Positions 8,199 to 60,601 of a DNA stretch of 64,000 nt are shown here, one piece after another. How positions within the stretch are numbered: position 1 is the stretch's first letter; every line of letters begins with the position of its first letter. Both the position numbers and the translations under genes were made by a program. The notes under the pieces are model-generated. The model made no database searches and was not told the DNA's origin. It saw only the letters and a list, made by a program, of their open reading frames with translations. The stretch comes from Phycisphaerales bacterium. Its GTDB lineage: Bacteria > Planctomycetota > Phycisphaerae > Phycisphaerales > UBA1924. Where the stretch lies: positions 62,001 to 126,000 of the forward strand of contig JAJDDN010000003.1 in assembly GCA_029260295.1 (NCBI GenBank), read 5' to 3'.

Positions 8199-8296
8199 GG
8201 TGCCCTCCTTCGACCGTCTTCGGCGAAGGAGGTCTTTGAAGTGCCCGAGCGGTTTGTGTGAATCGTGCTTCGCCGAAGCGGTCGAAGCACGGCACC
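8199..8296. repeat. dispersed cloverleaf-like palindromic element, copy A
   Basis: Outer arms GGTGCC / GGCACC. Left hairpin CCTCCTTCG / CGAAGGAGG (9 bp) with loop ACCGTCTTCGG; right hairpin CGTGCTTCG / CGAAGCACG (9 bp) with loop CCGAAGCGGT. The stems differ in sequence between halves, yet each is perfectly self-paired, and the two loops are complementary to each other apart from one missing base. It fills the gap between the YyaL-like gene and the ParA-like gene. Confidence 0.85.
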
Positions 8297-8312
8297 GGAC
8301 GGGTCATTCCGG

Positions 8313-10661
8313 CTATTCGATCTTCAGTTTCACAGGCAAACGGACCGTAACCGGGGCGAGACACTGGGACTCGTCGCAGGGCTGGAAGGTGATGCCCAGG
8401 ATCGGCTCGCCGGGGGTTGGTCCGATGCCATCGGCTTTTTCGATCGCGACCTCGAACTCGATGCGGCCGTGATGGACGGAGATCAGGTTCTCGCCCTCCC
8501 CGAAAGGCTCGCCATCGGGATACTGGGCGTAAACCGCCACGCCCTGGCCCTCAATAAGACCCACACGGAGCGGGATAAGCAACTTGGCAGCGTCGGTCCC
8601 TCCGGGATCGGAGGCGACGATGTGGAAGGGTTTGTCGATTTCCAGAGCCACCGAGAACGACGCGGGGGTGTCATCGCTGACGACCACTTCCTCCTCGGAC
8701 ACAAACACCGTCACCGGACCCTTGGGCGTTGGCTGCTGTTCATCCGACGCGGCCCCGGCGAAGGCGTAGCGGTCGCCGATGCGGTCCTTCTGTGTCATCA
8801 TCGCGATCAACGCCCGCGTGGAGTTGGCCACGCTGATCGGGTTGGTCGCGATGGACGCGGACACGCCATTGAGCGAATCCACCGCCCAGTCGCTCCAACG
8901 GTCCTCGCCGGAGATCTCGACCATGCGTGCCATGACCAGTGCCATGACGCCAACGCCCGATGGCGTCGCCCCGTCGTGGAGCGTGCGGGGACGGATGAAT
9001 AGATCAGTCCGATCCTCGCGTGTGTCGTGGTAGACGCCGGGGGCTGATTCAAAGTGCTTGCGAGATGAGATAAAGAGCTGCTCGATCGGTGTCCAGAGTG
9101 AGTCATCGTTCTCGGCAACCGCGAGATTGATGAGCGCCTCTAGCAGAATCGAATGGTCTTCGAGCCCGGCGGCGATGGTGCTCTGGTGATCTCGGCGTGA
9201 TCTTGCAAGCTGCCCGTCGGGGGTCCGCATGGTATCGAGCAAGAAATCCGCCCCATGACGGGCGGCCTCAAGATACCGGCGTTCATCAAGAACAACACCA
9301 GCGCGGGTCAGACCAGAGATCAGCATCGCGTTCCACGCACAGATCACCTTGTCGTCCATCCGGGGCTGGTCACGCAATGCGCGTGCAGCGTACAGCCGCT
9401 CGTTGATCGGATCGAGTTTGGCGTGAAATGCTTCTAGCGTCATGCCCAGATCGGCCGCGAGCAAATCAGGGCGTTTGTCGAACCGGAGCACATTGCTCGC
9501 GGGTTCGTCGGGGTGGTGCGGGTCCTGAAAGTTCGTTCCGGCGTCGAGCCCGTAGATTCTAATCGCAAACTCCGCATCATCTTGGTGTTCCAAGGCCATG
9601 CGGATCTGGTCCGGGGTCCAGAGGTAGTTCTGGCCTTCGCGGTGGTTCACCTCGGCGTCTTGAGCACTGTAAAAACCGGTGGTTCCCGCGTCGGTCGATT
9701 GGTCGCGCATTTCGCGGAGCACATAGTCGGCCGTCCGCCGGGCGATGCGTTTGTAGAACGCGTCGTCATAAATCTCGGCCGCCCGTGCGTACAGATTCAG
9801 CAGCTGCCCATTGTCATAGAGCATCTTCTCAAAGTGCGGCACCAGCCAGAACTCGTCGGTCGCGTAGCGGTGGAACCCGCCCCCGACCTGGTCGAAGATC
9901 CCGCCGGTGCCCATGCGATCGAGCGTCATTTTCACACTCTGATCGATCGCTTCTTTGGTATCGGCGTCAACCAGCAGGCGTGCATCGAGCAGCAGCTCCA
10001 TGAACACGGGCTGAGGAAACTTGGGTGCCCCGCCGAAGCCGCCGTTGACACGGTCGAAGCGGCGGAGCAATCCCGCGACAGCACCTTGGATATGCTTAAT
10101 CCCGACTGGCACCGGCTGTTGATCGGTCGCGATCTGCTCCCCGACCGCATCGGCGATCGCTTGCGACTGCTCGATGACCTCGGCGCGTTTGTTTTTGTAG
10201 GCATCGGACAATGAATCAAGTACCTGCGGGAACGACGGCCGACCGTAGCGTGGCTCGGGTGGGAAGTAAGTCCCGGCCCAGAATGGACGGCGTTGCTCGG
10301 GCTCAAGGAATACCGACATCGGCCAGCCGCCCGACCCCGTCGTGATCGTCGTCGCGGCCATATAAATCTCGTCGATCTCGGGATGCTCCTCGCGGTCGAG
10401 CTTGATGCACACATACTTCTCGTTCATCAGCGACGCGATTGCTTCATTCTCGAACGACTCGCGTTCCATCACATGGCACCAGTAGCAGGTCGAGTACCCG
10501 ATCGACAAAAACACCGGAACATCACGCTCCACGGCCTCGGCGAACGCCTCGTCGGACCACATCCGCCAGTGCACCGGGTTGTGGGCGTGCTGGAGCAGGT
10601 AGGGCGAGGTTGAGTTGATCAGTTCGTTGGGCTGATGCTGCGTGTCAGAAGGTGATTGCAT
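8313..10661 (-). CDS. DUF255/YyaL thioredoxin-domain protein with C-terminal DsbD-like domain
   Basis: 782-residue protein of the YyaL/SPATA20 family. Residues ~12-170 form the DsbH-like thioredoxin domain: [17 protein letters not shown], then the redox motif C59-Y-W-C62, and [11 protein letters not shown]. Residues ~190-630 resemble an alpha/alpha six-barrel ([40 protein letters not shown]). Residues ~650-782 are an addition: a beta-rich domain ending [11 protein letters not shown] with a Cys pair at 762/767, which looks like the DsbD N-terminal (DsbD-alpha) domain. There is no obvious signal peptide. A TAGAAT box 5 nt before the ATG suggests its own leaderless start, although the gene follows DUF1801 by 8 nt. 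Confidence 0.9.
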
Positions 10662-10669
10662 GAATCATT

Positions 10670-11032
10670 CTAGGTGGCTGACCGACCGCATAGCTGGGCG
10701 GCATTGAGGATGATCGGGACCAGATTCTTCTCGTTGATCTCGCTGGCTTCCTTGAAATCAACATGCATAAACCGCACCCCGGTTTCAACCAGCAATCCTG
10801 CTGGGTCATCCAGATCTTCGCCGCGCGGGTCAACCATCAGCCGAACCACCGAATCCCTCGGCGAGATCAGCACGCACATGGCTTTGTATTTGTACGAAAC
10901 CACCGACCACCCAACCTGCACCGACTCGGTCGCATCGGGGATCGTCTTGCGGACCAATGCTCGCAGAGCAACGCACACCTCTTCGAGGTGCGGGTCGAAG
11001 CCACTAAACAGGTCTTCAGGCGATAGTCTCAA
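10670..11032 (-). CDS. DUF1801-like protein, TTG start
   Basis: 120-residue small protein. The pattern (helical N-terminus with ALVRKTIPDATESVQVGW, then a strand-rich middle YKAMCVLISPRDSVVRL and MHVDF, and a helical tail) fits the DUF1801/YdhG fold, whose function is unknown. The start appears to be TTG directly after the TAG stop of the FIST gene (minus strand), since that stop is in frame upstream and no ATG lies early in the frame; expression is probably by translational coupling. Confidence 0.7.
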   Translation of the reverse strand: MRLSPEDLFSGFDPHLEEVCVALRALVRKTIPDATESVQVGWSVVSYKYKAMCVLISPRDSVVRLMVDPRGEDLDDPAGLLVETGVRFMHVDFKEASEINEKNLVPIILNAAQLCGRSAT

Positions 11033-59794: not shown

Positions 59795-59885
59795 GGTGCC
59801 CCCACTCGCCCTCTTGGACGCAGTCGGGTCTTGATATTCCAACATTGCCGATCACCAAAGACCGCACTGCGCCCAAGAGCCCATG
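59795..59885. repeat. dispersed palindromic element, decayed copy G
   Basis: Aligns with copies E and F (GGTGCCCCCACTCGCC...TCTT...AAGACCGCACTGCGCC) but pairing is broken: left stem CCCCACT/AGTCGGG has a mismatch, inner stem CGCCC/GGACG is broken, and the right arm no longer returns GGCACC. Likely an eroding copy. Confidence 0.6.
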
Positions 59886-59911
59886 TCCCTCGGCCGTGCC
59901 TACCGTAGCCC

Positions 59912-60481
59912 ATGAGCGACCCAGCCAATATCCTACCCGGACTCACCGAAGACCCCGCAAACAGCGCGCTGCCCTACAAGCTCGCATGTCTATGTGACCT
60001 CCGCGACAAAGACGGCCGCATCCTCCTCCTCCACCGCATCAAAGAACCCAACAAAGGCCTCTGCTCGCCCATCGGTGGCAAACTCGAAATGCACCTCGGC
60101 GAATCCCCCGCACAATGCGCCCAGCGCGAGATCGAAGAAGAAGCGGGCATCCATGTCGATATAAACGACATCCGCCTCATCGGACTCATCGCAGAAACCG
60201 CCTTCGAAGGCAAAACCCACTGGCTGCTGTTCTACTACCGCGTCATGGTCCCCGTCGAAGTCGTCGACGGCCATATGAACGAGGGCGAACTCCGCTGGCA
60301 TAACCTCGAAGATGTCGAATCGCTCCCGATCCCCGACACCGACCGCGAAATCATCTGGCCGATGGTCAACAAGCACGAAAACACCGGCACCGACGGCGGC
60401 CCGGGCTTCTTCTGCATCCACATCGACTGCCAAGGCGACAAACTCAGCTACACCATCGAACAAGAATCCACCACCAAGTAA
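59912..60481 (+). CDS. Nudix hydrolase
   Basis: 189 residues. Nudix box GGKLEMHLGESPAQCAQREIEEEAGI at residues 55-80; the loop between the first Gly and the first Glu is two residues longer than the canonical Gx5E, as in a known subset. Strands before it (LACLCDLRDKDGRILLLHRI) and after it (THWLLFYYRVMVPV) complete the fold; GGPGFFCIHIDCQG follows near the C-terminus. Substrate unknown. TACCGT lies 5 nt before the ATG. Confidence 0.88.
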   Translation: MSDPANILPGLTEDPANSALPYKLACLCDLRDKDGRILLLHRIKEPNKGLCSPIGGKLEMHLGESPAQCAQREIEEEAGIHVDINDIRLIGLIAETAFEGKTHWLLFYYRVMVPVEVVDGHMNEGELRWHNLEDVESLPIPDTDREIIWPMVNKHENTGTDGGPGFFCIHIDCQGDKLSYTIEQESTTK

Positions 60482-60497
60482 TCCCACTACACAATCA

Positions 60498-60601
60498 GGG
60501 TGCCACTACTCGCGTTCTTACGCGCAGTAGTGTCTTCGCACTCACAACTTGTTCAAACTTGAAGAGCACTACTGCGCCGAAAACGGCGAGTAGTGGCACC
60601 C
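60498..60601. repeat. dispersed cloverleaf-like palindromic element, copy F
   Basis: Arms GGGTGCCA / TGGCACCC. Left inner stem CGCGT-TCTT-ACGCG, right inner stem CGCCG-AAAA-CGGCG, both inside CACTACT/AGTAGTG. Compared with copy E the same helices are kept by different base pairs. Between two convergent genes. Confidence 0.88.

Follow-up and report, generated by a model that had tools for sequence, protein, structure and literature searches.

The six intergenic elements (A–F) that lie within a 64,000-nt stretch of the Phycisphaerales bacterium genome GCA_029260295.1 (contig JAJDDN010000003.1, here C3, positions 62,001–126,000; hereafter the window) raise the question of what kind of element varies its paired stems from copy to copy and yet keeps them paired. 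A sequence-only reading had described A–F as a cloverleaf-like family, and knew of no functional account for such repeats. We find that the family is real and mostly explained: A–F are very probably REPINs, or bacterial interspersed mosaic elements (BIMEs), i.e. non-autonomous inverted pairs of repetitive extragenic palindromic (REP) units spread by HUH transposases of the REP-associated tyrosine transposase (RAYT) type, which are encoded elsewhere in the genome and belong to a planctomycete clade with its own guide. This identification draws on compensated hairpins, a high copy number, RAYT genes flanked by the same units, co-occurrence with RAYTs across the genus, orthologous sites that are occupied in some genomes and empty in others, and an unpaired guide base.

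All six elements were found where the sequence-only reading had placed them, with the sequences it gave. Read 5′ to 3′, each begins with one unit and ends with another in reverse complement, the two being separated by a linker; a unit comprises GGTGCC, a 26–27-nt hairpin and a tail that is mostly GTCTT. Of GGTGCC, only GGTGC is the free tag, since its final C is able to pair with the G that opens the tail. The candidate REPINs, together with a seventh, single unit that had previously been overlooked, are as follows.

Candidate REPIN A, 8199–8296: REP unit of the CTCCTTCG class (8199–8236, + strand, tail GTCTT) and REP unit of the GTGCTTCG class (8260–8296, − strand, tail GATTC).
Candidate REPIN B, 18403–18494: REP unit CTCCTTCA (18403–18439, + strand) and REP unit CTCCTTTA (18458–18494, − strand, tail GATTT).
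Candidate REPIN C, 19789–19885: REP unit ACTGCTTG (19789–19827, + strand) and REP unit ACGCCTTG (19848–19885, − strand).
Candidate REPIN D, 27373–27461: REP unit ACTGCTTG (27373–27411, + strand, tail GTCTG) and REP unit ACGCCTTG (27423–27461, − strand).
Candidate REPIN E, 35857–35962: REP unit ACTACTCG with apical CGCCG (35857–35895, + strand) and with apical CGCAT (35924–35962, − strand).
Candidate REPIN F, 60498–60601: REP unit ACTACTCG with apical CGCGT (60498–60536, + strand) and with apical CGCCG (60563–60601, − strand, tail GCTCT).
Single decayed REP unit, 59795–59832 (C3:121795–121832), + strand: GGTGCC-CCCACTCGCCCTCTTGGACGCAGTCGGG-TCTT, 16 bp past the stop of the open reading frame (ORF) at 59041–59778.

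Using a strict hairpin test, we counted 14 hairpins tagged GGTGCC within the window; the two units of each of A–F make up 12 of them, whilst 59 permuted hexamers gave 55 hairpins altogether (mean 0.93, maximum 4); the remaining two GGTGCC hairpins (at 10024 and 29335) are probably due to chance. An earlier, looser test discriminated poorly (36/89 for GGTGCC, 716/3231 for permuted hexamers) and was superseded. A cloverleaf as the functional unit is not supported; the unit is instead the single tagged hairpin, the REP, found alone and in same-strand clusters; the outer closing stem arises because two tags stand in inverted orientation. That stem had been given as GGGTGCCA/TGGCACCC, which is correct for C–F, whereas A and B carry GGTGCC/GGCACC. 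The TCTT and AAGA borders described for the middle do not extend to the second units of A and F, the second unit of B or the first unit of D, whose tails are listed above. Hairpins 1 and 2 had been said to differ in their stems in nearly every copy, but E and F each have identical basal stems in their two units and differ in the apical stems alone, and the basal stems of B differ at one pair. With regard to position, and relying on uncurated ORFs, all six elements do lie between genes, each starting or finishing 0–23 bp past a stop codon; only E and F (2/6), rather than several, are found between convergent stops, and A–D lie between same-strand ORFs. The ORF downstream of D (26058–27449, − strand) probably starts further in, as its candidate start codon sits inside the element. 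Directly after F (60602–60635) there is a separate hairpin, AACACCCGCC-GAAG-CGGGTGTT, with the look of an intrinsic terminator, and because it adjoins F, the element itself is probably not the terminator at this site.

The source genome comprises 2.91 Mb in eight contigs and is 92 % complete. Rather than few copies, it holds 237 matches to the unit pattern GGTGCC-N22–34-GTCTT, compared with 15 for a reversed-pattern control; a first pattern with a gap of 28–50 (158 matches, control 34) had been replaced since it missed the 38-nt class. The doublet pattern GGTGCC-N58–88-GGCACC was matched at 37 places (control 3), 22 of which we judged to be clear REPINs, in addition to E and F, and lone units and one-strand clusters were common throughout the genome. 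The defining properties of REPs and REPINs, namely a short palindromic hairpin in high copy, its inverted doublet and, as assessed for A–F among the genomic copies, an intergenic position, are accordingly all present.

In order to measure stem compensation, we selected 26 distinct 38-nt units by tag, tail and length only, and compared seven basal pairs in a fixed-length alignment with 500 shuffles. Pairing occurred in 94.3 % of cells (71.9 % shuffled), changes on both sides of a pair in 41 cells (11.6 shuffled), and the covariation score was 0.587 (0.200 shuffled); none of these values was reached in any of the 500 shuffles. When partners were shifted by 1–3 columns, pairing fell to 24–45 %. 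Among 24 genomic REPINs, the arms of the two units differ at 28 basal 5′-arm positions, where local pairing is found in 52/56 cases, compared with 14/56 after exchange of the 3′ arms, and of the 168 pairs compared, 10 fail to form in at least one of the two units. The local hairpins, and not merely one long palindrome, are therefore maintained, as had been proposed. Compensatory change in many independent places had also been claimed; the compensation is real, but the independence was overstated, as several of the 24 REPINs share a stem-class pair and do not represent independent events. C, D and C3:238692 have nearly the same pair, and a further set is formed by A, C2:31970 and C7:179236, in all three of which the GTGCTTCG unit with a GAT tail is joined with the CTCCTTCG unit with a GTCTT tail. 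Part of the stem variation comes from the joining of ready-made unit classes.

The absence of a functional account ends with the genes that such units adjoin. Three Y1_Tnp genes are present in the source genome, all of them above the cut-off of 80 for the NCBIfam model REP_Tyr_transpos (NF047646; 110.4, 93.7 and 97.5 bits). By sequence, their best solved relative is Escherichia coli TnpAREP (4er8, E-value 1.3e-8), with the HUH and YI..NP motifs aligned, so that both marks of a RAYT (TnpAREP), HUH and the catalytic tyrosine, are found; their own motifs read [EN]H[IV]H, FWQ and YIH[EMQ]NP. All three genes (3/3) have flanking repeats. The RAYT on contig C7 carries an ACGGCTTG unit (GGTGCC-ACGGCTTGACCGTCTTCGGCAAGCCGT) on both flanks, inverted. 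On contig C2, the RAYT near 291 kb is flanked on both sides by units tagged GGTGGC, of the GTGGAGG and ATGCAGG classes, and on one side also by a GGTGCC-CTCCTTCG unit. For the RAYT near 296 kb, one flank contains an ATGTAGG unit, and ∼25 bp past the other end of the gene lies a CCGAC REPIN that the strict flank test missed.

The same association extends to relatives. We assembled 71 RAYT-profile loci (30 returned by a profile search, 39 picked from its list and our own three, with one duplicate removed), and assigned 60/71 to the clade of the source genome's RAYTs (own clade; ≥ 100 bits to a model of the three proteins), leaving 11/71 others. Within flanks of 400–450 bp, hairpins tagged [CG]GTG[CG]C adjoin 51/60 own-clade RAYTs, our three included, and lie on both sides of 41/60; the corresponding figures for the other RAYTs are 2/11 and 0/11. 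Six control motifs were found at 1–15 of the 60 own-clade loci on any side and at 0–6 on both; the motif [CG]GGT[CG]C (40/60) was excluded from the controls, because it equals the true motif displaced by a single base. The exact tag GGTGCC accounts for 38/60 on any side and 30/60 on both. In a second set, the best 80 of 417 named loci found with patterns from our RAYTs (72 titled planctomycetes, 75 with enough flank, partly the same genomes as above), a tagged hairpin occurs at 55/75 and on both sides at 46/75, with values of 13 and 2 for one control motif. At three loci (L213, L214 and L222), the RAYT is flanked by units similar to the ones in E and F (ACTACTCG). Nine higher-scoring RAYTs from the same order (L073–L081) form a clade separate from ours at 100/100 support, and the three inspected (L073, L076 and L080) have GTAG-tagged repeats; GT[AG]G hairpins alone are a weak marker, being present on both sides of 10/11 other RAYTs and also of 16/60 own-clade ones.

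What sets the own clade apart is the tag. The conserved sequence 5′ of the hairpin foot is [CG]GTG[CG]C, and the base preceding the foot pair is unpaired. Amongst 260 distinct RAYT-flank units the tag is GTGC in 208 and GTGGC in 52, and it is GTGC in all A–F units (12/12). The mark of the GTAG-REP superfamily, GTAG or GT[AG]G at the foot, is accordingly missing from 12/12 A–F units and 208/260 flank units, and would be satisfied by the 52 GTGGC units. The base after the foot pair seldom complements the last guide base (G in 8/201 GTGCC guides, C in 3/47 GTGGC guides), and for this reason we conclude that the guide stays single-stranded. The residues described as contacting GTAG in E. coli TnpAREP include E100, H101 and R104 (PMC6006769, PMC8266576); at the aligned position the own clade reads FW[QL].GGG[YFH]DRN. 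GGG[YFH]D is present in 59/60 own-clade proteins and 0/11 others, a distribution that depends in part on the definition of the clade itself, whilst WEHxxR is present in 6/11 others. We infer from this alignment that the GGG[YFH]D motif may read the new guide. An extension of the published guide rule to GTGC, by which cuts at GC or GA would be expected, is not claimed, as the main tail of our units, GTCTT, misfits and the CC predicted for GTGG is absent after the hairpin. Tails starting with GC follow 109/201 GTGC-tagged units and 3/47 GTGG-tagged ones.

These features can be set against several known systems. The GT(A/G)G REPINs or BIMEs and their RAYTs (TnpAREP groups 2 and 3) are well established, and their descriptions include 20–40-nt tagged hairpins, high copy numbers, inverted pairs, inverted REPs at the RAYT gene, compensated stem subfamilies, hybrid BIMEs and a preference for gene 3′ ends (PMC2817692, PMC3116915, PMC3733652); stem-compensated variants and hybrid BIMEs in particular had already been described in other bacteria (PMC2817692, PMC3733652), and GTAG families are reported from Planctomycetes, including R. 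baltica (PMC3733652). Our elements share all of these traits, and their minority GGTGGC units formally carry GTGG at the foot; they differ in that the main tag is GTGC, neither GTAG nor GTGG, that their RAYTs form a clade apart from L073–L081 and that GGG[YFH]D replaces WEHxxR. TnpAY1 subclass 2.6 (Bertels group 5) is likewise described with non-GTAG ‘atypical secondary structures’ beside the gene and copies in the genome, and has a similar tyrosine motif (PMC6006769), but that group is described mostly from Bacteroidetes. This comparison is by description only, setting its published motifs (NH[LIV]H, WQ and YIH[QN]NP) against those of our RAYTs. TnpAY1 class 3 differs in its CnGA foot and Y....Q motif, as published. 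TIRtrons and TIRYTs also pair RAYT-like genes with other inverted repeats (PMC3733652); unlike ours, some of those terminal inverted repeats (TIRs) share GGGGWSAS. CGTC-tagged repeats are again short tagged palindromes, but have a different tag and, according to PMC3733652, no association with a transposase gene. No word beginning GGTG occurs in the main texts of PMC6006769 and PMC3733652, and no report of a GTGC-tagged RAYT system was found in the open-licence literature, with figures and supplements outside the scope of that search. New here are GTGC as a guide, how widely it occurs, the rule in this clade that the base before the foot is unpaired, the GGG[YFH]D motif shared by its RAYTs, and inversions in place, whilst the GTGGC minority fits the known GT[AG]G.

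Across 21 genomes of the genus, the control-subtracted copy count ranged from −13 to 233 in the 15 with a RAYT-profile match and from −5 to 16 in the six without (Mann–Whitney p = 0.0014); moving G016, whose sole match sits in a synthetase-like ORF, to the RAYT-less side gave p = 0.0032. Together with the hairpins at named planctomycete loci, these counts bear out the statement that similar repeats recur in planctomycetes.

Comparison of the window with the other genus genomes (G001–G020) further revealed occupied, empty, swapped and inverted sites. At site A, match coordinates leave no space for an element in G006, G007 and G017. At site B, G001 has a ACGCCTTG/ACTGCTTG REPIN at the equivalent intergenic place, and G002, G009, G011 and G020 have none, and no space for one. 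The element at site C is inverted in place in G001 between the same flanking genes: its linker matches in reverse at 16/19 positions (score 25.4, 0/500 shuffles as good), compared with a forward score of −1.7 (3/500 shuffles). At site D, two-sided alignment was possible for 15/19 fetched loci. The REPIN of G001 sits at the same junctions with its units in reverse order, and since its linker matches 9/11 in reverse (0/500 shuffles; forward 186/500), the REPIN of the window is probably inverted relative to it. G013 has a REPIN of another class nearby, and the other 12 loci lie within −4 to +61 bp of the empty length, with G004 and G006, both without a RAYT match, empty at −1 bp each. In G015 (L161, G015:C11), this site is taken up by another long inverted repeat, not of the GGTGCC kind, which consists of GCGCCCTCGCGGGGAGG...TGACGGAGGGGTCTT together with its mirror. 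Site E shows reversed unit order in G001, with a linker too diverged to compare, and empty-length offsets of +1 (G007), +3 (G019), −14 (G017) and −17 bp (G004 and G006). The element at site F is in the same orientation in G001 and G007 and is missing from G017 (no RAYT match; −3 bp), six further loci not being judgeable. Beyond the window, orientation is kept at the C2:139712 REPIN, unit order is reversed at C8:299999 (linker too diverged to compare) and unit order is the same at C3:238692, where the linker is undecidable and a single flank matches. Linkers are alignable in four of these seven site pairs, which include two inversions (C, and probably D). Recombination between inverted arms or template switching could cause such inversions without a RAYT. 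Small inversions at hairpins are reportedly known from chloroplast genomes.

A number of observations weigh against the identification of A–F as RAYT-spread REPINs. Two of the five measures of compensation are weaker: six pairs with a double change compared with 4.3 (13/500 shuffles as high), and 14 further pair types compared with 12.0 (51/500). The three present RAYTs are flanked by stem classes that do not exactly match those of C, D, E and F, and 9/60 own-clade RAYTs lack a tagged hairpin by the strict test, two of which (L092 and L113) show one on other inspection. Within the genus, G016 has a pattern excess (50 compared with 7) whilst its sole RAYT-profile match is the one in the synthetase-like ORF; G003 has a RAYT and no excess (12 compared with 25); the RAYT-less G017 and G019 have small excesses of 10 and 16; and counts were uncorrected for completeness, which ranges from 56 to 94 %. 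At the empty sites, flanks align too poorly to fix the exact targets, no target-site duplication was seen by eye beside A–F, and no reads showing transposition or excision were seen in a comparison that lacks a near-identical strain.

Three other explanations have nevertheless to be set against the same data. A structured RNA family kept in 3′ untranslated regions for its transcript fold, as an mRNA stabilizer, terminator or regulatory RNA, with mobility secondary or absent, would suit the position of all six copies just past stop codons, the strong folds on either strand and the retained stem pairing, and REPs elsewhere are said to stabilize mRNA or terminate transcription (PMC6006769). We consider it improbable, given that the window yielded two tRNAs only, and no family for A–F, in Rfam at gathering score, that the units flank RAYT genes in many genomes, that orthologous sites vary in presence, with another class at site B in G001, that F is directly followed by a separate U-tailed hairpin and that the tag base before the foot stays unpaired, for which an RNA stem would have no need. 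Simple palindromes decaying at random, their local hairpins unselected, would leave long palindromes such as B, E and F still nearly are, yet the arm-exchange test (in which the 24 REPINs are not independent), the excess of double changes and the poor pairing of slid alignments all contradict them, and this reading is extremely unlikely.

Hardly more credible are miniature inverted-repeat transposable elements (MITEs) of a cut-and-paste (DDE) transposase, or attC-like recombination sites, to which one might turn in view of the terminal inverted repeats GGGTGCC/GGCACCC and the foldable single-stranded hairpins with a bulge. The enzyme associated with the units is a Y1 HUH transposase, lone units occur without a partner, and target-site duplications were not seen; inspection by eye, against a general consensus only, showed no attC boxes, and no DDE transposase or integrase search was made.

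For A–F as REPINs, the comparisons suggest mobile units with a guide function that would operate as follows. Each unit has a 5′ single-stranded guide (GGTG followed by C, in some by G), a hairpin that rises from a C–G foot pair and is usually interrupted by a bulge or mismatch in the middle of its stem, and a short 3′ tail. A RAYT dimer would read guide and hairpin on single-stranded DNA, its tyrosine would cut beside the hairpin, and the two-unit segment would be excised or copied to a new place, with the best survival for copies shortly after stop codons. Loss of pairing would end a hairpin's use as a substrate, and stem differences between copies would reflect several RAYT lineages, past and present, each keeping its own stem class. 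It is also conceivable, though we think it rather unlikely in this full form, that GTGC-tagged REPs and their GTGG variants constitute a large REP superfamily of their own across Planctomycetota and a few other metagenome-assembled genomes, served by RAYTs with a recoded guide loop (FWQ.GGG[YFH]DRN), in which REPINs flip whole and in place as a by-product of the RAYT reaction, keeping their junctions and not their orientation.

Two further observations concern the wider distribution of units and RAYT domains. In the source genome (G000), unit clusters at C2:158–187 kb, C3:225–259 kb and C6:189–219 kb (L036–L039, L041 and L042) run mostly in one direction and then switch, pointing toward the centre. 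An analysis of unit orientation relative to gene direction was dropped, because 28/65 array units fell inside crude greedy ORFs, showing these calls to be too poor. Additionally, in six relatives' genomes we found an in-frame RAYT-like Y1 transposase domain within a class I tRNA synthetase (L335:849–4904, −; L336:1630–5514, −; L337:1199–5227, −; L338:893–4858, +; L339:1133–5227, −; L340:1242–5027, −), and the profile search gave further long-frame matches. These fused proteins are 1262–1365 aa long, the Y1 domain lies just before a block ending in DWCISRQLWWGH, PDHxH is kept in 5/6, and Pfam recognized tRNA-synt_1 and Y1_Tnp in two scanned pieces. The host is read as a valyl-tRNA synthetase (ValRS) from its conserved RQLWWGH and KMSKS, and flanking residues such as GRTGFQPV and GLEARPT resemble REP hairpins in translation. 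Our literature search found no paper on a Y1 transposase domain inside a tRNA synthetase.

For the biology of these planctomycetes, the identification explains in functional terms a kind of repeat common in their genomes, with no need for a new RNA class. It also provides a natural set of RAYTs and REPs whose guide, GTGC, is one base off the known GTGG, a set that includes both guide variants and stem classes by the dozen, in which the published TnpAREP rule linking guide to cleavage can be tested. Furthermore, the occupied, empty, swapped and inverted sites within a single genus offer a route to measuring the turnover of such elements.

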